Program-made: the position numbers and the translations under genes
Shown: positions 40,034 through 64,000 of the stretch, in pieces
Layout: every line of letters begins with the position of its first letter
How positions within the stretch are numbered: position 1 is the first letter of the stretch
The notes under the pieces: model-generated
Database searches by the model: none
Told to the model about the DNA's origin: nothing
What the model saw: the letters and a program-made list of their open reading frames with translations, nothing else
Source: Prorocentrum cordatum
Lineage: Eukaryota > Sar > Dinophyceae > Prorocentrales > Prorocentraceae
Reading direction: 5' to 3'
Length of the DNA: 64,000 nt
Assembly (NCBI GenBank): GCA_963575745.1
Contig: CAUYUJ010016162.1
Location: 201,666 to 265,665, forward strand

Positions 40034-42337
40034 TTGGCCAGAAAAATCTCGACGGACATTTTGATGACTTTTCGTCGGTCGAAAATTCGGTTCTCGAAAT
40101 TTAACCATTCGTTAGAGCTCTAGTATGTTTTTCAGCTCGATCGGTTACCTTTTACTGTCAAAAAGCACTGCGGCGGGATCGCCCGTTTCGGGTCAGCTTG
40201 TCACGTGGTGACAGTTTTCTCAAGATAACTCGAGCTTCAGGACAGCTACAGAGCTGGTAAGCACAGCTAATCGATTCAGAATAATCAGACGCGTTCGCCT
40301 GTTGAACCCAGAGGTCTGAACTCGGTCTGCTAGCCGAGCTAGGTCCGCAAACCTATTCGTATTATTCGAGTTATCCGAACTGAAGGACAGTACAGAGCTG
40401 ATACCTACAGAATCTGATTCATAATTATCAGTGGCCCTTGTCTGGTGACTCCGGAGCTCTGACTTCGGTCTGCTGCCCGATCCAGAATCGCAAAAACTGT
40501 TCGTATTGTTCGAGTTATCTTGAGAGATGCTCTTGGTTCTCTGCACTTAACTCGGGCTGTAGGGCAGCTGCATGGCTGGTAATCACTAGAATCGATTCGG
40601 AGACATCAGACGCGTCCGCCTTTCGAATCCAGAGCTTCGAACTCTTTCTGCTGCCCGAACTAGGTCTGCGAAAATATTCGGCCTGTTGGATTCACCTGCC
40701 AAAAATATTCGCCAAAATATTCGCATTGTTGGACTCATCCTGACAGGTGCTGTCGGTTTCCTGCACTTAACTCGGGCTGTAGGGGGTGCTGTTGGGCTGG
40801 TAAGCACAGGAGTGAAATTGCTTGGGCTGATTTAAGAGTAATTCCGGGGCGCTGGAGAGCTAGTTGGCAAGAAAAATCTCGACGGACCTTTTGGTGACTT
40901 TTGGTCGGTTGAAAATTTTGTTCTCGAAATTTGTACATTCGTTAGAGCTCTAGTATTTTTTCCCATGATTTTCGATCTTATTGCCGCTCGCCATCTTGAT
41001 CTCAGCTCGATCGGGTAGCTTTTACTGCCAAAAAGCAGGCAGGCGGGATCGGCCGTTTCGAGTCATCTTGATACGCGCTGTCGGTTTTATCAAGATAACT
41101 CGAGCTTGAGGACAGCTACAGAGCTGGTGAGCACAGCTAATCGATTCAGAATGATCAGGCGCGTTCGCCTGTTGAACCCAGAGGTCTGAACTCGGTCTGC
41201 TAGCCGAGCTAGGTCCGCAAACCTATTCGTATTATTCGAGTCATCTTGACATACGCCCTCCGTTTTCTGTACTTAGCTCGAGCTGCACGACAGCTATATG
41301 GCTGATACGTACAGAATCTGATTCAGAGTCCTTAGTGGCCGTTGTCTGTTGAATTCAGACCTCCGAACTCGGTCTGCTCTCCGATCTAGAATCGCAAAAC
41401 TATTTCTATTGTTCGAGTCGCTTGCGAGATGCTGTCGGTTCTCTGCACTTAACTCGGGCTGTAGGGGGGCTGCATGGCTGGTAATCACTGGAGTCGATTC
41501 GGAGACATCAGGCGCGTTCGCCTGCGGAATCCAGAGCACCGAACTCGGTCTGTTGCCCGAACTAGGTCCGCGAAACTATTCGTATTGTTCGAGTCATCCT
41601 GAGAGGTGCTTTCGGTTTCCTGCACAACTCGGCTGCAGGGAGGCTGCAGGGCTGGTAATCACAGGGATACTCGAACTAGGTTTGCCAAACTATTCGTATT
41701 GTTCGAGTCATCCTGAGAGGTGCTGTCGATTTACGCACGTAACTTGGCTGTAGGAGAGCGACAGAGCTCGTACAGAGGACAATCTAGAAGCATCGGGGGC
41801 GTTCGGCTGTTTCATCCGAGAGGTCTCAAATTGCCTGGGCTGAACAACTATTTTTTCTGTGTAATTTCTTTCGACACTACATGTTGTCAGGAAGCTCTAC
41901 GAGTCCCCCGGCGGTAAGAAAGGTTGACGCCTCATCAGTTTAATTTTAGTTCCGCCTCATCAGTTTCATTTGACACGTTTGATCGCCTTGAGTGGTCTCC
42001 AATTGATTTGTTTTGTTGGGTGCTTCCTTCACTATCTTGATCGTTCCGACGTGCCTGTTGATTGAGACGTACTGTGGCCTCAAAGAGGTTCGATAGTATT
42101 TGATCTCCTTAATTCATCACTTCACATTTGACGTTGAGCATAAGACTCTTGTCATACCGCGGGTTGTACAAGCGTATTTCGGAGAGCTGAGGCTGTCGTC
42201 TTCCTGATCGTCAGGATCGGTGAGGCTTCGCCTGCTCCCTATACGTCCGCGTCCTTACTTCCGACTAGGCTGGAAAGCCTGCACAGTCGACCGCAAAGTC
42301 CGCAAAAAGAAAGGTTGACGGTTTACCGCCGGCGCCC
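40034..42337 (+). repeat. Two fused class A modules, hairpin interrupted
   Basis: The first copy (40034-40828) stops inside the last subrepeat (GCTTGGGCTGA) and joins the leader of the second at TTTAAGAGTAATTCC with no hairpin between. The second matches 35.97-37.04 kb. Its 3' hairpin is interrupted by the 377-bp insertion at 41930-42306. Confidence 0.85.
41930..42306 (+). mobile_element. 5'-truncated LINE-type insertion with 14-bp target duplication
   Basis: 377 bases split a class A hairpin. AAGAAAGGTTGACG occurs on both sides (41916-41929 and 42307-42320), a perfect 14-bp target duplication. The insert consists only of the 3' UTR shared with 46.4-46.68 and 48.2-48.57 kb, including the stem-loop at 42262-42289 and the tail CCGCAAAGTCCGCAAA. 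A 5' truncation plus a duplication of this length is typical of target-primed reverse transcription. Confidence 0.9.
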
Positions 42338-45063: not shown

Positions 45064-45310
45064 GTCTCCATATTGTTGGTGTTCATATCCATTTCTGGTT
45101 GCGGTTTGGTGGTGGCAATTTGTACACGCTGACTTGTTCCTCACTGCCTAGAGCGGTGCTCGTAAGTCTCGGTTCTTTCAGATCTGCCTTGAGTGGATTG
45201 CATATTGTTCAATTTGCAGTATTTCATTGTTGTGGTCTCTCAGGTGTCCTCATACATTTTCCTTCAGTTTTCTGCCATATACCTATCATTTGTGGTCTTG
45301 TTTGTGCCAG

Positions 45311-46027
45311 ATGCCTCATGTGCGGAGTCTCGCATCCAGGTGTTTGCGTCGGACTCGGGCTTGCCAACTTGGATGGGTTCGACCGAATTGTCCTCTTCCG
45401 TTGGTGCTCGAAGGCCTAGTCGCCCGTGACACGGTCTTGCATGCAGAGTTGGATGCTCAGGCCAATAAGTTGTTGACAGCATTACTCCATCCCTCTGATA
45501 GCTGCCCGAAAGTTGATTCCGTTGCACTTCGCGGTTTTTCTTCTGCTAGTGATGCTGGGGTCCAGGTTGACGAGGTCGAATATCCTTCTCAAAGCATTCG
45601 AGTATTTTCAATTGATGCTGGTGTCCAGGTTGACGAAGTACACTGTCCCTTTCAGAGCATTCGAGTGTCCTCAATTGATGCTGAGGTCCAAGTGCATTCC
45701 CAAAGCATTCGAGTGTCTTCAATGGGTGCCGGCGTGCAAACTCAGTTCACTTGCGAGGACGCCTGTGTGCAAACTCAGTTCACTTCAATGGGTGCTGGCG
45801 TGCATACTCAGGTCACTTTGAAGGACGCCTGTGTGCAAACTCAGATCACTTTCCAGGACGCCGTCAAAACATGGATTGACAGGAGCACTGCCCAGAAGGG
45901 GTTCACCGGCCAGATTGCGCTGCAGTATTTAATCCAGGGGCTTGAATCATCTCTGCCTCGAGTGGAGTGCAGAATTCATTGTGTATCCTTCAATTCATGC
46001 AAGTTCGAGGATGACAAGAGTCATTGA
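45311..46027 (+). CDS. Hypothetical protein with short internal repeats, in a retroelement insert
   Basis: I do not recognise this protein. The frame is open from 45152; the first ATG is at 45311, giving about 238 residues; earlier starts would need a non-ATG codon. The middle has at least two repeat types: three copies around AGVQVDEV followed by SQSIRVSSIDA, then four copies around ACVQTQFT or AGVHTQVT. The C-terminal quarter (KTWIDRSTAQKGFTGQIA and on) is not repetitive and looks globular. No reverse transcriptase or zinc-knuckle motif is visible. It is followed by a minisatellite and then by a 3' UTR shared with two other inserts, so it is probably the payload or ORF1-like protein of a non-autonomous retroelement. 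The repeated segments could also be minisatellite expansion in a dead gene. Confidence 0.5.
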   Translation: MPHVRSLASRCLRRTRACQLGWVRPNCPLPLVLEGLVARDTVLHAELDAQANKLLTALLHPSDSCPKVDSVALRGFSSASDAGVQVDEVEYPSQSIRVFSIDAGVQVDEVHCPFQSIRVSSIDAEVQVHSQSIRVSSMGAGVQTQFTCEDACVQTQFTSMGAGVHTQVTLKDACVQTQITFQDAVKTWIDRSTAQKGFTGQIALQYLIQGLESSLPRVECRIHCVSFNSCKFEDDKSH

Positions 46028-46175
46028 GTCATTGATAACATTGGAGTCATTGGAGTTGCGGCGAACATTGGAGCCATTGGAGTCATTGATAACATTGGAG
46101 TCATTGAGTCATTGATAACATTGGGGTCATTGATAACATTGGAGTCATTGATAACATTTGAGTCATTTGATAACT
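46021..46175 (+). repeat. 18-bp minisatellite
   Basis: Imperfect head-to-tail copies of ATTGGAGTCATTGATAAC and shortened forms, starting at the stop codon of the preceding ORF. Confidence 0.85.
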
Positions 46176-46176
46176 C

Positions 46177-46400
46177 ATTGCATGAGGTCTTACTCTTCTC
46201 CGCCTCGAGTGGAGTGCAGAATTCATTGAGTTGATGTGATTGGTGTTCGCTGCTCGCTCATGCCATGCTTGTGCGTGTTGTGCGTGCGTGCTTCACTTCA
46301 CTTCACACACTCATAAGAGCTTAGGCTGTCGTCTTAATTGATTACTCATTGCATGACGTCTTACTTTTCTCCGCCTCGAGTGGAGTGCTGAATTCAGTGT
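46177..46400 (+). repeat. Repeated CCTCGAGTGGAGTGC block
   Basis: CCTCGAGTGGAGTGCAGAATTC occurs at about 45957 (inside the ORF), 46203 and 46372. The last two are each preceded by CATTGCATGA(G/C)GTCTTACT. The spacer between them is T-rich with CTTCACTTCACTTCACAC. This looks like tandem duplication of the 3' end of the ORF into the UTR. Confidence 0.7.
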
Positions 46401-46684
46401 GTACCCTCAGTTTCATTTGACATGTGACGTGCCTGTAGATTGAGACGTACTGTGGCCTCAAAGAGGTTCGATAGTATTTGATCTCCTTAATTCATCAATT
46501 CACATTTGACGTTGAGCATAAGACTCTTGTCATACCGCGGGTTGTACAAGCGTATTTCGGAGAGCTTAGGCTGTCGCCTTCCTGATCGTTGGATCGGTGA
46601 GGCTTCGCCTGCTCCCTATACGTCCGCTTCCTTGCTTTCGACTAGGCTGGAAAGCCTGCACAGTCGACCGCAAAGTCCGCAAAA

Positions 46685-46739
46685 AACAAAGGTTGACTCA
46701 AGGAAGCTCTACGAGTCCCCCGGCGGTAAGAAAGGTTGA
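46685..46739 (+). repeat. Remnant hairpin sequence between two insertions
   Basis: AACAAAGGTTGAC (hairpin loop) is followed directly by GGAAGCTCTACGAGT, the left arm CCGGCGGTAA and AAGAAAGGTTGA. The right arm of the first hairpin is missing. The next insertion starts inside the second loop. Confidence 0.8.
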
Positions 46740-46855
46740 GGACGCGGAGCTTACCTCCCGCTCTCCCTCGGCCTTGTCCCGCCGGGGGGCTCTCTCGAGC
46801 TGCATTGTGCAGTCAGGAGTCTTTGGTTCCTCATACTGTACACGGTGCTCTCACT

Positions 46856-47767
46856 ATGAGGGACGACGGCGGCGCCGCGTTGGCTGCTTCTCGTGTGGAG
46901 GCAGCGGTCCGCGCTGCTGTTCAGGCAGGTGCCCCGCGCAGGACTGTCGCAGCCGCCGCGGCTGCCGTGGCCTCGGTCATGGCGGCGACGCGGTGTGGCG
47001 TTGGTCCGGCGCAGGGCGCCCCTGATCCCGCTGCCGCCGGGTCGGCCGGATCCCGGCGGCAGCGGAGGAGGCTGAGGAAGAAAATTATGACGTGCAGGTC
47101 GGGGCAGGATGCTGTCCTTGGGGAGTCTGTCGGGCAGACCCTAAAGGCTGATCAGGATGTTGATCATGAGATATCTTGTTATCACACGTCCAGTGTTGAT
47201 CACAGGCGAGTCCAGCTTGATGATCGGTCTTCAGTGGTTTCTTATGAGATTCCCCTTCAAGCAAGGCTGAGACCCATATCGAGGAGGCCGAAGAAGAAAA
47301 CTATGAGTTGCAGGTCGGGGCATGATGCTGTCCTTGGGGAGCCTGTAGGGCAGACCCTAAAGACTCAGCGTGTTGATCATGAAGTTGCGCACGTGGGTTC
47401 GCACGTTCCTGTTCTTGCTCAGACGGCAGCTGATGTGAAGATGTCGGAGTTGGAGATGGATAACGAGGATAACATGCGGTGCTTACTACTTCAGACGATG
47501 CATAAGATGGATGACAATACTGAGAGGATCCAGGACGCCATAGTAGTTCAGGGTAGTAAAATCGATAATGTTCAGACCCAGGTACAGAAGCAGGGTAGTA
47601 AAATCGATAATGCTCAGACCCAGGTACAGAGACTTGAGGCCAGATACAATCAACTTGAGGCCTTCGTCCAGAGACTTCAGGGACTGGCGCGATCAGGTTC
47701 TGCGGCGAGTGCTGCGTCTACGAGGCCTGTGTTTACGAGACCTGCTAATACTATACATTATACCTGA
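46856..47767 (+). CDS. Coiled-coil protein, probable ORF1-type protein of a non-autonomous retroelement
   Basis: The frame runs through the 5' junction; the first ATG within the insert (46856) gives 303 residues. Residues 1-60 are alanine- and arginine-rich (RVEAAVRAAVQAG, RRTVAAAAAAVASV), then comes a basic patch RRQRRRLRKK. A ~36-residue segment occurs twice: CRSGQDAVLGESVGQTLK and CRSGHDAVLGEPVGQTLK, each followed by VDHE. The C-terminal third (about residues 200-290) is a heptad-rich coiled coil containing two copies of QGSKIDN(V/A)QTQVQ. Basic N-terminus plus coiled coil fits an RNA-binding, self-associating ORF1-type protein, but no RNA-recognition or zinc-knuckle motif is visible, so this is inference. 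The T-rich 3' part and lack of ORF2 make the element non-autonomous. Confidence 0.6.
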   Translation: MRDDGGAALAASRVEAAVRAAVQAGAPRRTVAAAAAAVASVMAATRCGVGPAQGAPDPAAAGSAGSRRQRRRLRKKIMTCRSGQDAVLGESVGQTLKADQDVDHEISCYHTSSVDHRRVQLDDRSSVVSYEIPLQARLRPISRRPKKKTMSCRSGHDAVLGEPVGQTLKTQRVDHEVAHVGSHVPVLAQTAADVKMSELEMDNEDNMRCLLLQTMHKMDDNTERIQDAIVVQGSKIDNVQTQVQKQGSKIDNAQTQVQRLEARYNQLEAFVQRLQGLARSGSAASAASTRPVFTRPANTIHYT

Positions 47768-48198
47768 GTATATGCTGCCTGCCGCCGCCTCTCTGTGTTG
47801 CTGGCTTGTATTGTGTCACGTGCTTGTTCAGTGAGACGAGTTTGAACTTTTGTGACTTGTAATTGCGTTGCTTTCTTCATGCTTGTGTGTTCATGCATGC
47901 ACGCGTGTCGAATAAGAGCTTCGCTTGATGGCCACTTGTTGCATGCATTAATGATTGAGATCGCATCGCGTGGTCTTTTTGTTTGTTATTGGGACTGCCT
48001 CGTGTGGTTATTCAGTGCATCTTTATTCAGTGCAGCCATGGCTGTAATGCTTGTATCTCATTTGTTCTTCTTTTCCTCACTTTATCTCTCATTGAGCTCT
48101 AACAATTCAGTGTGTGCATGTTCAGTCCCTGGCCAGGTCTCCTGGCTCTCTTGTCGCAGTCTTAGTCTTGCCTCTTCAGTGTTCTCACTGTTGTAGGG

Positions 48199-48567
48199 TT
48201 TAATTTTAGTTCCGCCTCATCAGTTTCATTTGACACGTTTGATCGCCTTGAGTGGTCTCCAATTGATTTGTTTTGCTGGGTGCTTCCTTCACTTTCTTGA
48301 TCGTTCCGACGTGCCTGTTGATTGAGACGTACTGTGGCCTCAAAGAGGTTCGATAGTATTTGATCTCCTTAATTCATCACTTCGCATTTGACGTTGAGCA
48401 TAAGACTCTTGTCATACCGCGGGTTGTACAAGCGTATTTCGGAGAGCTTAGGCTGTCGTCTTCCTGATCGTCAGGATCGGTGAGGCTTCGCCTGCTCCCT
48501 ATACGTCCGCGTCTTTACTTCCGACTAGGCTGGAAAGCCTGCACAGTCGACCGCAAAGTCCGCAAAA
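48199..48567 (+). promoter_or_regulatory. Shared retroelement 3' UTR with terminal stem-loop
   Basis: The third and longest copy of the 3' UTR also found at 41940-42306 and 46400-46684. The terminal stem-loop (48522-48549) has arms CGACTAGGCT and AGCCT-GCAC-AGTCG: ten pairs, a four-base bulge and a GGAA loop of GNRA type. It is followed by CCGCAAAGTCCGC and an A-run. In LINEs of the stringent type a conserved 3' stem-loop plus short tail repeat is what the reverse transcriptase recognises; that role here is inferred. Confidence 0.7.
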
Positions 48568-48598
48568 AACAAAGGTTGACGGTTTACCGCCGGCGCCC
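48568..48598 (+). repeat. Remaining 3' part of an interrupted class A hairpin
   Basis: AACAAAGGTTGACGG, right arm TTTACCGCCGG and CGCCC, followed by AGT. It completes the class A end broken by the insertions. Confidence 0.85.
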
Positions 48599-56880: not shown

Positions 56881-56973
<93 letters not shown>

Positions 56974-57064: not shown

Positions 57065-58186
57065 TCCGGGGCGCTGGAGAGCTAGTTGGCAAGAAAAATC
57101 TCGACGGACCTTTTGGTGACTTTTGGTCGGTTGAAAATTTTGTTCTCGGAATTCAACCATTCGTTAGAGCTCTAGTATTTTTCCCGTGATATTCGATCTT
57201 ATTCCCGCTCGCCATCTTGATCTCAGCTCGGTTGGATACCTTTTACTGCCAAAAAGCGTCGAGGCGGGATCGGCCGTTTCGGGTTATCTTGATACGCGCT
57301 GTCGGTAAATTGAACTTAACTCGAGATATAGGACAGCTACAGAGCTGATAAGCACACCTTATCGATTCAGAATGATCAGGCGCGTTCGGCTTGCAACCAG
57401 AGGTCCGAACTCGGTCTGGTAGCCGAGCTAGGTCCGCAAACCTATTCGTATGATTCGAGTCATCTTGACAAGCGCTCTCGGTTTCTGTATTTAGAGCTAT
57501 ACAACAGCTACAGAGCTGATACTTACAGAAACCGATTCGGAATCATCAGTCGCGTTCGTCTGTTGACTCCAGAGCTCTGAACTCGGTCTGCTGCCCGATC
57601 CAGAATCGCGAAACTATTCGTATTGTTGGAGTGATCTTGAGAGGTGCTGTCGGTTTTCTGCACTTAACTCGGGCTGTAGGGGGACTACAGGGCTGGTGAT
57701 CACATCAATCGATTGGAAGGCATCAGGCGCATCCGCCTCTGGAATGCAGAGCTCCGAACTCGGTCTGCTGCCCGAACTCGGTCCGCGAAACTGTTCGTAT
57801 TGTTCGAGTCATCCTGAAAGATGCTGTCGGCTTTCTGCACTTAACTCGGGCTGTAGGGGGGCTGCAGGGCTGGCAATCGCAGGAATCGATTCAGAGACAT
57901 CAGACGCGTCCGCCTGTCGCATTCAGAGGTCTGAACTCGGTCTGATACTCGAGCTGGGTTTGCCAAACTCTTTGTTTTCTTCGAGTGATCTTGAGAGGTG
58001 CCGTCGATTGACGCACGTAACTCGGGCTGTAGGATAGCTATAGAGCTCGTACAGAAGGCAATCCAGAAGCATCGGGGGGCGTTCGGCTGTTGCATCGAGA
58101 GGTCTGAAATCGCTTGGGCTGAAAAACTATTCGTTCTCTGCAAGTGTTTTCAACATTATATATTGTAAGGAAGCTCTACGAGTCCC
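57065..58186 (+). repeat. Class A module cut at its hairpin by the LINE
   Basis: Leader from CCGGGGCGCTGGAGAGC, five subrepeats and GGAAGCTCTACGAGTCCC, then the spliced-leader start of the LINE. The hairpin itself is not seen before the window ends. Confidence 0.85.
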
Positions 58187-58207
58187 CCGTAGCCATTTTG
58201 GCTCAAG
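58187..58207 (+). other. Dinoflagellate spliced-leader sequence (DinoSL) at the LINE 5' end
   Basis: The 21 bases begin CCGTAGCC, continue ATTTTGG and end CTCAAG. As far as I know the conserved DinoSL core they match it in full. This leader is added to the 5' end of nuclear mRNAs by trans-splicing in dinoflagellates. Its presence as DNA at the exact start of an insertion means the inserted copy was made from a trans-spliced RNA. The first C residues overlap the C-run of the hairpin, so the junction is uncertain by about two bases. Confidence 0.95.
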
Positions 58208-58222
58208 GTGTGTTGGCTCAAG
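58208..58222 (+). other. Relict spliced leader
   Basis: The 15 bases directly after the full leader (GTGTGTTGGCTCAAG) align with the last 15 of DinoSL (CCATTTTGGCTCAAG) at 11 of 15 positions, with the final ten identical. A 15-base remnant is what remains if a new leader is spliced to the AG inside the old leader (CCGTAG/CC), the pattern known from recycled dinoflagellate cDNAs. It implies an earlier round of trans-splicing and reinsertion. Confidence 0.8.
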
Positions 58223-58545
58223 GTCGCGGACGCGTACAGCTACGACTGCCTGGGGAACCTCCTCGTAGTTGTGCGCCAGTGATCAGTGGGCTGAGCTTTG
58301 TTTACCCAGCGGTAACGAACACACCAGACAGCATCGAGCCTCCGTGGGGAGAGTGAGGCTAACATCTTTCGTTTCGATTGTATACCATCATTTTCGGAGC
58401 AACGGCGATTGTTGAGCCTGAGCACGTTTCAGAGCACCAGCGACGGGACAAGATTTCCATTCAACGGCAAGAGGAGAAGCGACGTCGATTGGAGGACCAG
58501 CAGTTTTTGCAAAAGTGGAGTATTTCGACTGACATTGTAGGAAAG
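58223..58545 (+). other. LINE 5' untranslated region
   Basis: The ORF1 frame is open from 58363 but has no ATG before 58546. The upstream open part would encode a charged helical stretch (RDKISIQRQEEKRRRLEDQQ) that looks coding, so a non-ATG start or a lost upstream ATG is possible. Confidence 0.6.
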
Positions 58546-59709
58546 ATGGCCCTCAATGGTGCAGCATCAACTCCAATGGCAGCAGCAGCAGCAGCAGCTC
58601 CAATCGACAAGACACCTGCCAATGGTCGTCGCCGACGGAGGACAGAGGAGGAGGGGGAGGACGCAGCAAGAGGAAATGCAGGCATGGATGGACTGGATGA
58701 GTCAATCAGTTCCGATGGAGAGCAGTTTGATCCGGAAAATTGGCAGCAACAGATGTTCAACATGAATAAAGCAATTAGCAAGAACACACGTAAGACAGAG
58801 CGTAAGGTCAAGAGTTTGCAAAACGATGTGGGAAACATCCAGAGACGTCAAGATGAGGCAGATATTAAGATGAATTATTTGCAGAAGCAGTTTACGGAGT
58901 TCCAAAGGGAGGCGGGAAAGAGTGCGAGCATTGCATCAGGATCGACGGGAACGGGCACCACTCCGAACTTAGCATGGGGGATGGCAAAAGGATTGGGTAA
59001 AGGAGCTCAGGGCGCATGGAGTGCATCGAAGATCGAAATCAAAGGATGGGTTGTTCATTGGAAAGACCCCCCAATGCGTACGGCAGAAATGTTGACCCCA
59101 TACGATGCAGAGAAACTGATTGAGAATGTCATGGCCGTTTTATCGGATGATTTGAGGCAGAGGATCGATCAGAAAGCCAGTTTGGAGATGATGGGAGCTT
59201 ATACCGATAATCAGGGCCGTCAAAACACTCGTTCACTTATTTCAAAAGTGAGTTTGATTGCAACGCGAGGTACATATTCGAGCCAGTTGTGGGATATCAA
59301 ACGTAACATCGACCCTCATGTCCGAGTGCTGCCTGAGGGACCGCTCATCGCGGGTATGACGTCAAAGCCAGATACTTTCACAGGAGGAAACGTCAGGTGT
59401 GTGATTGAGAGTGCACCGTGGAAGCACCCACACATTGCCAAGATCGGTCAGTTTAAAGAGATCTGGAAACATCGTCAAATGTACCAGGATGCCGCCAATG
59501 TTGTCCAGAATGTGCCAGAGGTGAGGGGAAAAGCAGGGCCTCCAGTGACGGAGATTCTCACGATCGCACCCGACAGCCAGACTCGCCCAGTGTCGCTGGC
59601 GGAGTGGACGGAGACAGCAGGTTGGACGATTCACAATGATTCGATGATGACCCTGATGCCGACGTTCACAGCGGCAAAGTTCAAAGCAGACCTCGAGGCC
59701 CTAGCCTGA
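58546..59709 (+). CDS. LINE ORF1 protein
   Basis: 387 residues from the first ATG. The N-terminus has an alanine run encoded by GCA repeats (residues ~10-18) and a basic and acidic segment (GRRRRRTEEEGED). Residues ~70-130 form a predicted coiled coil (NMNKAISKNTRKTERKVKSL, then IQRRQDEADIKMNYLQKQF). The C-terminal ~220 residues begin near IKGWVVHWKD and look globular; no CCHC zinc knuckle is seen. ORF1 proteins of LINEs bind element RNA and assemble into particles; assignment rests on position before ORF2 and coiled coil, not on a recognised domain. The stop is UGA followed by CGG, and the frame continues without another stop into ORF2, which starts 36 bases downstream in the same frame. A fusion protein by readthrough is therefore possible. 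Confidence 0.8.
   Translation: MALNGAASTPMAAAAAAAPIDKTPANGRRRRRTEEEGEDAARGNAGMDGLDESISSDGEQFDPENWQQQMFNMNKAISKNTRKTERKVKSLQNDVGNIQRRQDEADIKMNYLQKQFTEFQREAGKSASIASGSTGTGTTPNLAWGMAKGLGKGAQGAWSASKIEIKGWVVHWKDPPMRTAEMLTPYDAEKLIENVMAVLSDDLRQRIDQKASLEMMGAYTDNQGRQNTRSLISKVSLIATRGTYSSQLWDIKRNIDPHVRVLPEGPLIAGMTSKPDTFTGGNVRCVIESAPWKHPHIAKIGQFKEIWKHRQMYQDAANVVQNVPEVRGKAGPPVTEILTIAPDSQTRPVSLAEWTETAGWTIHNDSMMTLMPTFTAAKFKADLEALA
59707..59709 (+). promoter_or_regulatory. UGA-CGG stop between ORF1 and ORF2, possible readthrough site
   Basis: ORF1 ends GCC-UGA-CGG. UGA followed by CGG or CUA is the core of type II readthrough signals known from several RNA viruses. The same frame continues for 12 sense codons to the ORF2 ATG. 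Known signals also need a downstream RNA structure, which I could not test. Confidence 0.45.
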
Positions 59710-59745
59710 CGGGGCCACTCCAGATGTGATCTGAAAGGAAGTTTG

Positions 59746-62700
59746 ATGAGTTGGAGCGTCTGGAGGGCAGGTAAAGACAAAACAACTCAAGTTTTACAAC
59801 GAATTCAAATGCATGGAAGAAGTGTTGCTTTGGTAGGCCTCCAGGAGTGCCTGCGCCTCACACACAGTATCATTTCAAAAGAGGGATGGAGATTGTTGCG
59901 TAGTAAAGACAAGCTAGCGGGTTTCATGTTCCGAGCGAGTGTTCCTATTAGATACACAGACAATCAGTCAAATCGGGTTGTGCTCATCGTGGTCGGCAAA
60001 ATCATCGTTGTCTCGGCTTACGTTCCACATGAGGGGAGAAGGAATGCGGTGGCAGAGTTCAATGCCCTAGCCAACTTGGTGAGGTCGAAGATCCAGGCAG
60101 CACGTGTGCAGTTTGAGCAAGAAGGGGGGAAAGATTTTGAGGTGGCCATCTTGACATATGCGAATGTTGAGTTGCCTGCACATGTACGGGGTGAAGGAGG
60201 AAAGGAGGTCACTGGAGGAGGTGTACGTACGGACTTGCAGGTGGGACAGGTGGTGGGAGGCTTCGAGACGGAGAGGACGAGGAGGAAACGGAGGATGCGT
60301 GAAGCCCTAGTCGACCTTATTGTTGAGCTGGACCTTGTGGCGTCGAACACGTTTCGGGAAAGGCTCCCAACGCATTTTACTCGTGCACATAAGGTACCGC
60401 AGGTGCTCGATTACATTCTTGCTCCGGCGTGGTGGGGGGAAGCTCGAGTACAGTGGCAGGACGTCAGGGACACAGGTAATGAGACGTCGGACCATGCAGC
60501 GGTGTTGTTGGAGTTGCCCGTATCGATCCGCCCGGCCCCGAGAGCAAAAATGAAGCGACCCGTACACCCCAAATGGGGGCCAGAGACCGAGCCAGGCCGC
60601 AGATTGTTCTCAGCCCAGAACTACGACAGATTAGTGACGGAGCGGGGGGAGGGAGACTACGTGCCACCAGGTAAGTTGTCCGAGGTGATGCTAGGCGCGG
60701 CGGAGGGGATCCCGACGAAGCAGATGACTCGAGAGGTGCCTCAGAAGTCAGAGAAACACAAAGCCCTGGAAAGAGCCAAAATGTTGAAACAATGGGAGGA
60801 CGAGGAGGAGAGGAAAGAGATAAACCGTCAGTTGCGAAAGGAAAAGAATGCCCTAAAGTGTGCCATGCTTAAGTATGCCAGCAGATCAAAGAAGAAAACC
60901 AGGACCGAGATGATCACTAAGTTAAACATCAATGGGAGGATGGAGGAGGATCAAACAACATGGAGTTCGGCACTGTATGAGCATACTAAGGGGAAGTTTA
61001 CGAATGAGCAGATCAGGAGGGAGACGGAGGAGGTGATGGAGGAGCTCAGGGACCAGGCCCACACGGACACCGTCAGGTTGACTTTCGACTTTAGTGCGAT
61101 GATGAGTGCCAGATCCAGACTGTCGGTGGGCAAGCAGACGGGGGAGGACGGGATCACGGTTAGCATGCTGAAGACTCTAGGCTTCGGGAACCTTCAGGAG
61201 ATATTTAAGACGTTTTCGGCCATATATGAGGGACGGGAGCCGACGCCAGAAGACTGGCGCAAGATAATACTCACGCTCATCCCCAAGAGTGAGAAGATTA
61301 CGAGTTTGGAGGATACCAGAGCGATTGCAGTTTCTTCATGCTTAACTAAGTGGTATTCGCTTTCCCTGGTTGTGGTCCTGGAGAGGTTCCCGGCCAAAAA
61401 CTTGGATCCCGAGATGAATGTATATGGGTTCATGTCTGGGAGAAAAACGACGGAGGTCACCTCGATGATTAAACATATCGGTAAACATGCCTCGATTTGG
61501 GGGAAGGGACAGAGCTTTTGGCTCTGCAGTTGTGATATTCTGAAAGCGTACGACCACCTTCGACTTACGACATGTGTGAGAGCAATGAGAAAGCTGGGTG
61601 TTCCTTCTTCTTTTCAGTATGCTATCCTGGAGCCGATGCTGAGAAACACGGCGTCGGCAAATTTCCAGAGTACCCAGTGCGAAACAGTGCCGTGGGACAC
61701 CTGTGTTAGGACGGGAGGGGTTGAGAGCCCCATCTTATTTGTGCTTGTCACGATTGCGATGATTGCCCCGACGATACACTCGTGGAAAGAGAGAGGCCTC
61801 GGATACAACATCGAGAGACCGAGGGCGTATGCAGATTCGATCGAGGCTAAAGTTGGAGCCAGTTCTCGCGCGATCGAAGGCTCCCAGGAGATGGAGGTCC
61901 ATCAGAGTCTCAGTCATGCGATCTGGGCGGATAACTTCTTCATCTTTGCCCAAGGTGATCGGCAGGAGGGAAAGAAGATGATTTCCACGATGATGCAGGA
62001 ACTGACGATATCGATACGTGAATGGGGCTTCGAGTGGAAACCCAGTTCGATTGAGTTAGCGACGTTTGGGGTTGACTTTGAGGCAGAGGCGTTGGAGATT
62101 CTAATCCCGACCAAATCTTTTGAGCAAGGACCGAAAAGACAGAGATCAGAGATCACATCTTTGGATTCAGCTGCGAGAGTAACCCCGTTGACAGGACACA
62201 CACCGCTTCCTCATTCTTCTATGCCAGTGTCACAATCACTTCTTCGTTCACAGTTGCCAGATCCGCAATCACATTTCCATTCGAAATATCCGACAGCTAC
62301 GCTGAGCAAAATATCCGACAGCTGCGCTGAACAGACGTATCAGACAGCTACGCTGAACAGAGACATACCGGTCCCCCAATCGCCTGAGACAGCACCAACG
62401 ACGTTTTCTTATGCACATTTGCCAATGTCAGTGCCAGATGTTCACTCTCATGTGCCATCGTCGTCGTTAATAAGAGTGCCTGTTGTTCTTTCGCAGTTGC
62501 CTGCAAAAACGGATTCTCCTCATTCTCGTGTGTCTTCGTCGTCGTCGATAAGAGTGCCTGTTGCCTCAGCTTGCAGTGTGCAGCCTGTTGCCTCAGCTTG
62601 CAGCGTGCACGAATTGTCTGAGCATGCGGGTGCTGGCGCGTCCACCGACTTGGTGAAGTCACTTTTTGTTCCGCGAGTGCAGGAGATTACATTTTTGGGT

Positions 62701-63840
62701 GTGCGGCTACACACTCGAATGAGGACGCACTTGGACGTGCAGTATCGGCTCCAGAAAGCTCAGCATGCGTTCTTTCAAGACATGAGTTTGTATCGATGTC
62801 GGTCGGTACCGTGGACGGTGAAATGGGAGAAGTATGTGAGCAAAGTACAGAGCACTTTCTTGTATAGTGTTGAAGGATCGAGTATCGACAAATCGGCATT
62901 GCAGGATACTCATAAGTTTGAGGGACGTTGCTTGATAAAAATAGTTGGTGTACGAAAAAGGATCGATGAATCATGGTTCAGCTTCAATGTCAGAGCCTAT
63001 AACTTTGCCAGGGAGAAATTTCGGGAAAAACATCCCAGCCTGGTTGAGTTGTACTTGCAGAAACAATGGGAGTGGAATAAGGATTGTTGCTTGTTCTTGA
63101 AGACGGCGGACATCGCGACAGATGCTGTTGGCAGTCAACAGAGTTCTGGAGCTTGGCGAGAATCAGCAAGTGTGTGCCGCAGTTTCATGACTGCGAGGTT
63201 GGCGATGTTCCATGGTATGAAACGGTGGACGGAGAGACGTGACTTGTACAATGAAGCGATCAGGGTGCTGAGTAAAAGCTGGAATAACCCAGAAGTGTCA
63301 GAAAAACGACGGAGGATTGATTCCCAGGCAATAGGTCAGACATCATGGCACGCTACATTTGAAAGTTTTCGGGGAGATGAGTATTGGAAACACTTGACAC
63401 ATGATGAGGAGACGCGGAAAGCATGGATTGAACATATCAAACAGAGGACAGGACTTACATTCGATCGACATTTTAAGCAGGAGAAAGAAAAACGGGTGGG
63501 ACCTAACACTTGGGAGGAGGAGGAGGCACCAACACGGGCGGAAACTACAAAGCAGGCAAAGAGGCTCGCACATGTCTTCGCGACGATGACGGATTGGTGG
63601 GAGTACGAACAGGGGATTGCACGAGGGCTGCCAGTGGAGATTCAGGGAGATAACATGGCCACGATTAAGTGGTTGAACGGGGAGTGGAAGATCCACAACC
63701 GAACATATGCCAGACAGATTGCCGAAATACAAAATGAGTTTCACGAGTTGCATGAGGAGTTTAACGTTGTCGGAGTCACGGTCGGAGGAGACATAGGGAA
63801 GCATGTCTATCGGGAGGGAAATCTGAGGGCTGATGAATGA
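59746..63840 (+). CDS. LINE ORF2: endonuclease, reverse transcriptase, RNase H-like C-terminus
   Basis: 1364 residues from ATG 59746 to UGA 63838. Residues ~1-255 are an APE-type endonuclease: VGLQE (~30-34), VVSAYVPH, and a closing SDHAAV (~248). The first-motif Asn is Ser (SWSVWRAG), and the usual GDxN motif reads LTYAN (~136-140), without the Asp. Residues ~468-800 are reverse transcriptase: LIPKSEK (~511), motif A CDILKAYDHL (Asp 597), motif B RTGGVESPILF (~655), motif C WADN (727-730, Asn in place of the second Asp). A Ser/Pro/Val-rich insert (~800-970) precedes FLGVRL (~983). After a connection region, the C-terminus has IQGDNMATIKWLNG (Asp 1302) and HVYREGNLRADE (1353-1364), the second half of an RNase H fold. 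The protein copies element RNA at the nicked target. The UGA is probably a late mutation because the frame stays open and domain-like beyond it. Confidence 0.9.
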   Translation: MSWSVWRAGKDKTTQVLQRIQMHGRSVALVGLQECLRLTHSIISKEGWRLLRSKDKLAGFMFRASVPIRYTDNQSNRVVLIVVGKIIVVSAYVPHEGRRNAVAEFNALANLVRSKIQAARVQFEQEGGKDFEVAILTYANVELPAHVRGEGGKEVTGGGVRTDLQVGQVVGGFETERTRRKRRMREALVDLIVELDLVASNTFRERLPTHFTRAHKVPQVLDYILAPAWWGEARVQWQDVRDTGNETSDHAAVLLELPVSIRPAPRAKMKRPVHPKWGPETEPGRRLFSAQNYDRLVTERGEGDYVPPGKLSEVMLGAAEGIPTKQMTREVPQKSEKHKALERAKMLKQWEDEEERKEINRQLRKEKNALKCAMLKYASRSKKKTRTEMITKLNINGRMEEDQTTWSSALYEHTKGKFTNEQIRRETEEVMEELRDQAHTDTVRLTFDFSAMMSARSRLSVGKQTGEDGITVSMLKTLGFGNLQEIFKTFSAIYEGREPTPEDWRKIILTLIPKSEKITSLEDTRAIAVSSCLTKWYSLSLVVVLERFPAKNLDPEMNVYGFMSGRKTTEVTSMIKHIGKHASIWGKGQSFWLCSCDILKAYDHLRLTTCVRAMRKLGVPSSFQYAILEPMLRNTASANFQSTQCETVPWDTCVRTGGVESPILFVLVTIAMIAPTIHSWKERGLGYNIERPRAYADSIEAKVGASSRAIEGSQEMEVHQSLSHAIWADNFFIFAQGDRQEGKKMISTMMQELTISIREWGFEWKPSSIELATFGVDFEAEALEILIPTKSFEQGPKRQRSEITSLDSAARVTPLTGHTPLPHSSMPVSQSLLRSQLPDPQSHFHSKYPTATLSKISDSCAEQTYQTATLNRDIPVPQSPETAPTTFSYAHLPMSVPDVHSHVPSSSLIRVPVVLSQLPAKTDSPHSRVSSSSSIRVPVASACSVQPVASACSVHELSEHAGAGASTDLVKSLFVPRVQEITFLGVRLHTRMRTHLDVQYRLQKAQHAFFQDMSLYRCRSVPWTVKWEKYVSKVQSTFLYSVEGSSIDKSALQDTHKFEGRCLIKIVGVRKRIDESWFSFNVRAYNFAREKFREKHPSLVELYLQKQWEWNKDCCLFLKTADIATDAVGSQQSSGAWRESASVCRSFMTARLAMFHGMKRWTERRDLYNEAIRVLSKSWNNPEVSEKRRRIDSQAIGQTSWHATFESFRGDEYWKHLTHDEETRKAWIEHIKQRTGLTFDRHFKQEKEKRVGPNTWEEEEAPTRAETTKQAKRLAHVFATMTDWWEYEQGIARGLPVEIQGDNMATIKWLNGEWKIHNRTYARQIAEIQNEFHELHEEFNVVGVTVGGDIGKHVYREGNLRADE
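62285..62360 (+). repeat. 25-bp minisatellite inside ORF2
   Basis: Three copies of an ATATCCGACAGCTACGCTGA-type unit at 62285, 62310 and 62335, periods about 25 and 26. Because 25 is not a multiple of three, successive copies are read in different frames. Confidence 0.8.
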
Positions 63841-64000
63841 ACTCACATTGCACGCATCAGAGATATAGAGTATGATAGGACTCACGAGCTACAGGAGTAT
63901 GACCTCTACGCCCTGCGGGGCGCTTTCGACGGTGGAGTCGATAAGGATAAAGCAGGAGCAGGTTGGTGGCTGGAGGGATTGATCAAATCATCGGCATCTC
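63841..64000 (+). pseudogene. In-frame continuation of ORF2 after the UGA
   Basis: The ORF2 frame stays open for 53 codons to the window end. It reads THIARIRD directly after the RADE-stop, completing a RADxxTHxAR-type motif, and then LRGAFDGGVDKDKAGAGWW, which resembles the first strand of an RNase H domain (catalytic Asp in FDGG). The strong fit argues that UGA replaced a sense codon. Confidence 0.75.

Follow-up and report, generated by a model that had tools for sequence, protein, structure and literature searches.

The window, that is, the whole 64,000-nucleotide stretch of the Prorocentrum cordatum contig CAUYUJ010016162.1 analysed here, holds at its end a LINE whose first bases are those of the host's spliced leader, DinoSL. 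The features of this element and of the repeat in which it lies are collected in Table 1.

Table 1. Features of the LINE and its 5′ junction in the window.
Feature	Positions	Strand	Evidence or remark
5′ half of broken target repeat, GGAAGCTCTACGAGTCCCCCG	58169..58189	+	Intact repeat copies; CCG at 58187-58189 common to repeat and leader
Complete DinoSL (21 of 22 nt), first bases of LINE	58187..58207	+	Exact match to CCGTAGCCATTTTGGCTCAAG
Spacer GTGTG between both leaders	58208..58212	+	Family-wide; origin unexplained
Older leader 3′ end, TTGGCTCAAG	58213..58222	+	
Conserved 5′ UTR hairpin directly behind older leader	58222..58284	+	Compensatory changes between families
5′ UTR without ATG	58223..58545	+	
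ORF1, 387 aa from first ATG	58546..59709	+	No Pfam match above cut-off
ORF2, 1376 aa stop to stop, first ATG 59746	59710..63840	+	RVT_1; SDH motif by eye
Reverse transcriptase domain	61279..62043	+	RVT_1 2.2e-10; WADN motif 61924-61935
ORF2 frame continued	63841..64000	+	3′ UTR and A-tail outside window, to ~64234 equivalent

ORF2 encodes a reverse transcriptase of LINE type, with the RVT_1 match (2.2e-10) and LINE-1 ORF2 as its best solved relatives (E 3.5e-7). The segment 59710-60900 gave no Pfam match, and the SDH motif of an APE-like endonuclease was seen by eye only. The stop codon of ORF2 (TGA, 63838-63840) is replaced by a sense codon in 8 of 8 other copies read (codons by eye). With LINE-1-type EN-RT non-LTR retrotransposons the element shares the two ORFs, LINE-1 ORF2 as best solved relative, an A-rich 3′ end and 5′ truncation, whereas the fixed target repeat, the WADN motif and RNase H motifs in an unusual order (by eye) are different. 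The reverse transcriptase motif of L1 is FADD. Since WADN was found also in a family only 24-28% identical in ORF2 (L050, L051), it is read here as a trait of the group rather than as damage. The RNase H-like motifs, seen by eye at ~63500-64000 and in L042 (positions 1-360), come as GDN.., REGNLRADE.., then DGG..AGAGWW and E, an order that looks by eye like that of a circular permutation. Scans of viral and prokaryote collections, which reach close relatives only, gave no relative of ORF2.

The hairpin at the start of the 5′ UTR has 20 pairs, with 97% of the cells paired across 23 sequences. Changes on both sides were found at 9 pairs, as high a value was reached in 0 of 500 shuffles and all slid controls were far lower, although related sequences can beat such shuffles without any structure. 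The hairpin is common to LINE families only 24-28% identical in ORF2. An Rfam search of 58100-58700 gave a single chance-level match, to a microRNA family, and no HDV-like ribozyme.

Upstream of the LINE lies a dispersed host repeat, GGAAGCTCTACGAGTCCCCCG^GCGGTAAC.., of which the window contains many intact copies that continue past GGAAGCTCTACGAGTCCCCCG with GCGGTAACAAAGGTTGACGGTTTACCGCC. The LINE interrupts this hairpin repeat at the CCG present in both repeat and leader, and its 3′ end (..GGCAAAAAA, followed by an A-rich tail) meets the other half of the repeat at L042:~500, equivalent to window ~64234. With one half of the repeat upstream and the other half behind the A-rich tail, the window LINE is thus a 6.05-kb insertion in the hairpin repeat, and it begins with the leader. 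Of 13 loci fetched for their 3′ ends, 9 have the LINE tail and then the same half of the target, the exceptions being L043, L051, L052 and L053, among which L052 is non-autonomous with another tail. The hallmarks of a non-LTR retrotransposon are present in the A-rich 3′ end, the variable 5′ truncation and the absence of LTRs.

Three non-autonomous retroelements occupy the same hairpin target elsewhere in the window (45065-46686, 46740-48569 and 41930-42308). They have a common 3′ tail of 270-370 bp that ends in A's and is 96-99% identical, and none has a leader at its 5′ end; one is plainly truncated. The start of another locus, L074, resembles by eye that of the 46740-48569 element, yet L074 has a leader. 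A run of 89 T's lies beside repeats at 56883-56971.

The leader sequence CCGTAGCCATTTTGGCTCAAG is matched only once in the 64 kb at up to 3 mismatches, and in none of 100 shuffles. The 22nd base of DinoSL (D, being T, A or G) cannot be read at 58187, where the preceding base is C and the target likewise has C. Directly behind, at 58208-58222, GTGTGTTGGCTCAAG is identical in 11 of 15 positions to the last 15 bases of the leader (fixed-place chance 7.9e-5). All four mismatches fall within its first five bases, and its last 10 bases match the leader exactly (chance 8.9e-7). On these figures a chance origin of the leader at 58187 was rejected. The start of element E1 (CCGTCTCCATATTG..) was considered as a decayed leader as well and rejected, since the 12 best-scoring 21-base matches of the window, with 13/21 or more, did not include it.

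The preliminary description of this DNA had stated that the LINE begins exactly with a DinoSL, and the exact 21-nt match set against the broken host repeat bears this out. It had also described a 15-base degenerate copy of the leader's end; the match is real, but it is not a decayed CCATTTTGGCTCAAG, its GTGTG being a trait of the family. Re-splicing within the old leader, by which that copy had been explained, does not seem to fit the window copy, as a splice at the internal TAG should leave CCATTTTGGCTCAAG, and GTGTG (once GCGTG) is instead fixed in the family. The relict CCATTTTGGCTCAAG is absent from the window copy and present in the close relative L034.

Retroelements of the SLACS/CRE type insert into the SL RNA genes of trypanosomatids, and a similar insertion here would place a leader at the 5′ junction. 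This is next to impossible, because the hairpin repeat lies on both flanks with the leader inside the insertion, instead of an SL RNA gene target, and there is one leader in 64 kb; for the window copy it is refuted by the filled and empty copies of the target. An SL gene array, named earlier as an alternative, was looked for in the 64 kb and none was found.

The genome assembly searched comprises 4,128,499,153 bases in 21,875 contigs. The query 58165-58700 had at least 41 matches (40 of 145 first-look candidates scored), of which 30 were taken as loci, the window included, and their 5′ ends were sorted by eye. Eight begin with a complete leader (L002, L003, L004, L006, L007 with one mismatch, L009, L016 and L018), 13 start inside the leader, 6 inside the GTGTGTTGGCTCAAG unit (two of them, L012 and L013, identical over the compared stretch) and 3 at or beyond its end (L020, L021 and L031). 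No conserved non-leader 5′ UTR runs through this position in the 30 family loci, in agreement with the earlier expectation. After the addition of ten more distant loci a complete leader with at most 1 mismatch was the 5′ terminus in 13 of 40 (L002-L041), and the remaining loci begin further in, within leader, relict or body. The target flank is a plain repeat junction in 28 of the 30 family loci (L028 and L030 differ, by eye). Each of the 13 complete leaders stands directly behind a CTACG(A)G flank, and 12 of these joins (not L018) fall, as judged by eye, where the C-run of the target shares CCG or CC with the leader.

With up to 3 mismatches allowed, the genome contains the first 34 nt of the family body 30 times, against 0 in controls. 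Over the first ~2 kb the 30 copies differ by 1-6% from the majority sequence, and the nearest neighbours in one subgroup by 0.4-0.8%. On a tree of 34 loci the full leader is found in 9 rows and requires 7 changes, of which supported branches force at least 5. Its distribution shows no clustering, as the shuffled mean is 8.2 and 94 of 500 shuffles were as low. This scatter by itself shows only that 5′ truncation is frequent.

The leader might be inherited DNA, captured once and copied passively ever since from a promoter of the element that starts at its first base. In its favour, GTGTGTTGGCTCAAG follows the leader directly in 7 of the 8 full-leader copies of the family, including L003 with GCGTG. 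The eighth copy, L018, has GAAAG inserted in front of GTGTGTTGGCTCAAG, however, and relatives at ~87-92% identity have other inner ends: GTTGACG with GGCTCAAG in L036, the canonical CCATTTTGGCTCAAG in L034 and AACGGTTG+CGGCTCAAG in L033. In the second family, with 24-28% identity in ORF2, L040 has TAACGTGTC between the new and the old leader and L041 has TTCCCC, despite being 97.3% identical over 5.9 kb. Leaders are also stacked, with about five leader-like ends in a row in L085 and four in L084. Inheritance would further demand, as a coincidence, that promoters in several families start exactly at leader base 1, and on this evidence it is distinctly improbable. The different spacers in copies 97.3% identical, together with the stacked leaders, point to leaders having been added repeatedly. 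The earlier claim that leader-bearing RNA served as template more than once thereby gains support from several families.

The cap is found beyond the families compared above. When the genome was searched for a leader end with the shared 5′ UTR motif behind it, 37 matches at 35 places were obtained, and 0 in the control. In our own sorting the cap is carried by at least seven 5′ UTR types, with leaders from double to stacked, and each type has at least one complete leader of at most 1 mismatch among the loci read. The cap recurs in non-autonomous kin of the LINE. Among these capped loci, L082 and L086 lie outside the hairpin repeat. L081 and L082, which represent a further leader-capped type with the 5′ UTR GGCGTCGCCAAAAGGCTCGC, have another, GC-rich flank in common, possibly another target repeat. 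Two loci that first looked single-leadered, C20416 and C21715, had leader-like pieces upstream when fetched as L075 and L080, and no single-leader copy is claimed.

In U6-L1 chimeras the foreign RNA is joined by template switching of the reverse transcriptase. A jump from the LINE RNA onto SL RNA during copying would likewise put a leader at the 5′ end, and short repeated 5′ pieces in two loci suggest that jumps occur. In L024 the leaders are preceded by a leader end and the first 7 body bases; in L033, which is not among the 30 family loci, they are preceded by CAAG and 10 body bases (L033:~1230-1260). These pieces perhaps look more like jumps of the reverse transcriptase, and the trans-splicing model leaves them unexplained. 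As the source of the leader itself template switching is very unlikely. Jumps would give ragged joins, whereas each of the 13 complete leaders ends precisely at CTCAAG, the end of the exon, no intron-like sequence behind it is common to them, and in the window's family the body has a single starting point.

From a canonical relict the splice acceptor is deduced to be the TAG within the earlier leader (PMC3229502); shorter relicts have been reported and TG has been proposed as a further acceptor (PMC12014239). In the elements described here the spacers TTCCCC, GTCCCC and GTTGACG are the sequence behind an AG in intact copies of the target. Of the 16 spacers compared, 3 (5 nt or longer) and a further one of 3 nt equal the sequence behind an AG in the target over their whole length, and the other 12, GTGTG included, have no such full match. 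Shuffled spacers match as well in 0.5% of cases for GTTGACG, 15% for GTCCCC and 19% for TTCCCC, so that a single spacer match is weak. A target origin of all spacers was not upheld. In L074 the relict leader is separated from the body by 16 nt of target (AAAAGAGCTCTACGAG) that equal the flank of this locus, for which two separate insertions could be an alternative source. The junction of L084 as it now stands (AAG, GTTG, truncated leader) is composed like the internal unit GTTGTGCTCAAG of the same locus. To judge from these junctions, AGs in the target likely served as splice acceptors in some rounds, not as the rule.

Relict leaders are not confined to this family. A leader followed within 25 nt by GGCTCAAG gave 2,111 matches in the genome (996 + 1,115, with stacks counted repeatedly; control 0), so that the arrangement noted earlier at the start of the window LINE does stand there but is as such common; among the matches listed, the relict is CCATTTTGGCTCAAG at most places. 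Relict-bearing retrogenes are well described (PMC12014239, PMC7245778, PMC3229502), with an LTR element, Ty1/copia, favoured as enzyme source (PMC6050394), and both this and the number of pattern matches suit a LINE that is one of many messages retroposed in trans, with nothing special about it. In a sample of the first 20 listed places with exactly leader + CCATTTTGGCTCAAG, longer stacks left out, in 14 the 60 bases upstream contained a TCC/AGG run that was pure over 12 nt or more, compared with 0.16% of 5,000 random window stretches. Three of these 14 loci, L087-L089, all leader-capped, were followed downstream. All three had an endonuclease domain (Exo_endo_phos) and two a significant RVT_1 match; in L089 the reverse transcriptase was seen by eye, Pfam giving the endonuclease alone. 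As the three relict loci followed, out of 20 sampled, are LINE-like, canonical leader relicts in the P. cordatum genome can mark LINEs in some cases. This argues against the ordinary recycled message, as does the insertion of the family at one sequence-specific target, which self-mobilisation predicts, and that explanation is considered unlikely. L055-L074 and L087-L089 are leader + relict elements of other kinds in (TCC)n microsatellites, where the [T]CC of the leader continues the repeat.

The window element is very probably a full-length copy of a site-specific LINE that obtains its 5′ end from the spliced-leader trans-splicing of the host. The central idea of the preliminary description, that trans-splicing supplies the 5′ end, stands on this reading and is supported by other copies and families. 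To go by the junctions, transcription would enter the LINE from upstream, and the pre-mRNA would receive the 22-nt leader at an AG, either the end of the encoded leader or the TAG inside it, or alternatively an AG in the target DNA beside a 5′-truncated copy. The capped mRNA would be translated and then, presumably by target-primed reverse transcription, copied back into a further repeat copy at a fixed position; the 3′ junction of this step is observed. A complete cDNA would end in the leader and join the target at the shared CCG; the junction is observed, and the homology may be what guides it. Old leaders would remain inside as relicts, so that every lineage would preserve an incomplete tally of the rounds it has gone through. 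That trans-splicing is part of the life cycle of the LINE and acts in each round is what we infer from these sequences.

Taken together, the families suggest a broader reading, to which we give about an even chance. Dinoflagellate LINEs of several clades would have left the making of their 5′ ends to the host SL machinery, and the favoured targets would match the first bases of the leader (the CCCCG hairpin repeat, TCC microsatellites). The leader would have two roles, capping the mRNA and forming the joint of the 5′ junction; the target could give the next acceptor, stacked leaders with caught target DNA would form a ledger of rounds and earlier sites, and DinoSL relicts may often mark LINEs.

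Like the relict-SL retrogenes of dinoflagellates, in which leader-bearing cDNA is reinserted and re-spliced to leave tandem leaders and the relict CCATTTTGGCTCAAG (PMC3229502, PMC12014239, PMC7245778), the window LINE carries a leader at the 5′ end of the insert. It differs in that the unit is a LINE with its non-autonomous kin, the leader is truncated at 5′ junctions, the target site is specific and target DNA is sometimes caught between leaders. The L1Tc/ingi LINEs with Pr77 also live in a host that trans-splices its mRNAs and also have a conserved 5′ element, but L1Tc has an unspliced translatable RNA, an internal promoter and an HDV-like ribozyme (PMC8190864), whereas here the leader is the 5′ end. 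DinoSLs have been reported near endogenised viral genes (6/26), with mediation by LINEs suggested (PMC10235124), and the source of retroposition has been called unknown, with Ty1/copia favoured (PMC6050394). In the available portions of PMC6050394, PMC12014239, PMC7245778, PMC8045281, PMC11453091, PMC10235124, PMC8190864, PMC7789003, PMC3942190, PMC10666404 and PMC3229502, no description of LINEs beginning with a leader was found.

The wider pattern across families is of more interest than the single window copy. LINEs need an intact 5′ end and a route to transcription. Internal promoters and ribozymes are among the solutions known; in the present elements the 5′ end seems to be renewed by the trans-splicing of the host. 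This makes it testable which retroelements generate dinoflagellate retrogenes, and the stacked relicts would offer a record of rounds for each lineage. DinoSL relicts have been used in print as retrogene markers, and a relict leader by itself may not suffice to recognise a host retrogene.

Two exact DinoSL copies were also noticed in an IMG/VR viral contig, L001, at 2746-2766 and 2893-2913 on the minus strand, 147 bp apart. One of them precedes a GC-richer ORF in this AT-rich contig, and it may be asked whether that ORF is a gene captured from a leader-capped mRNA.
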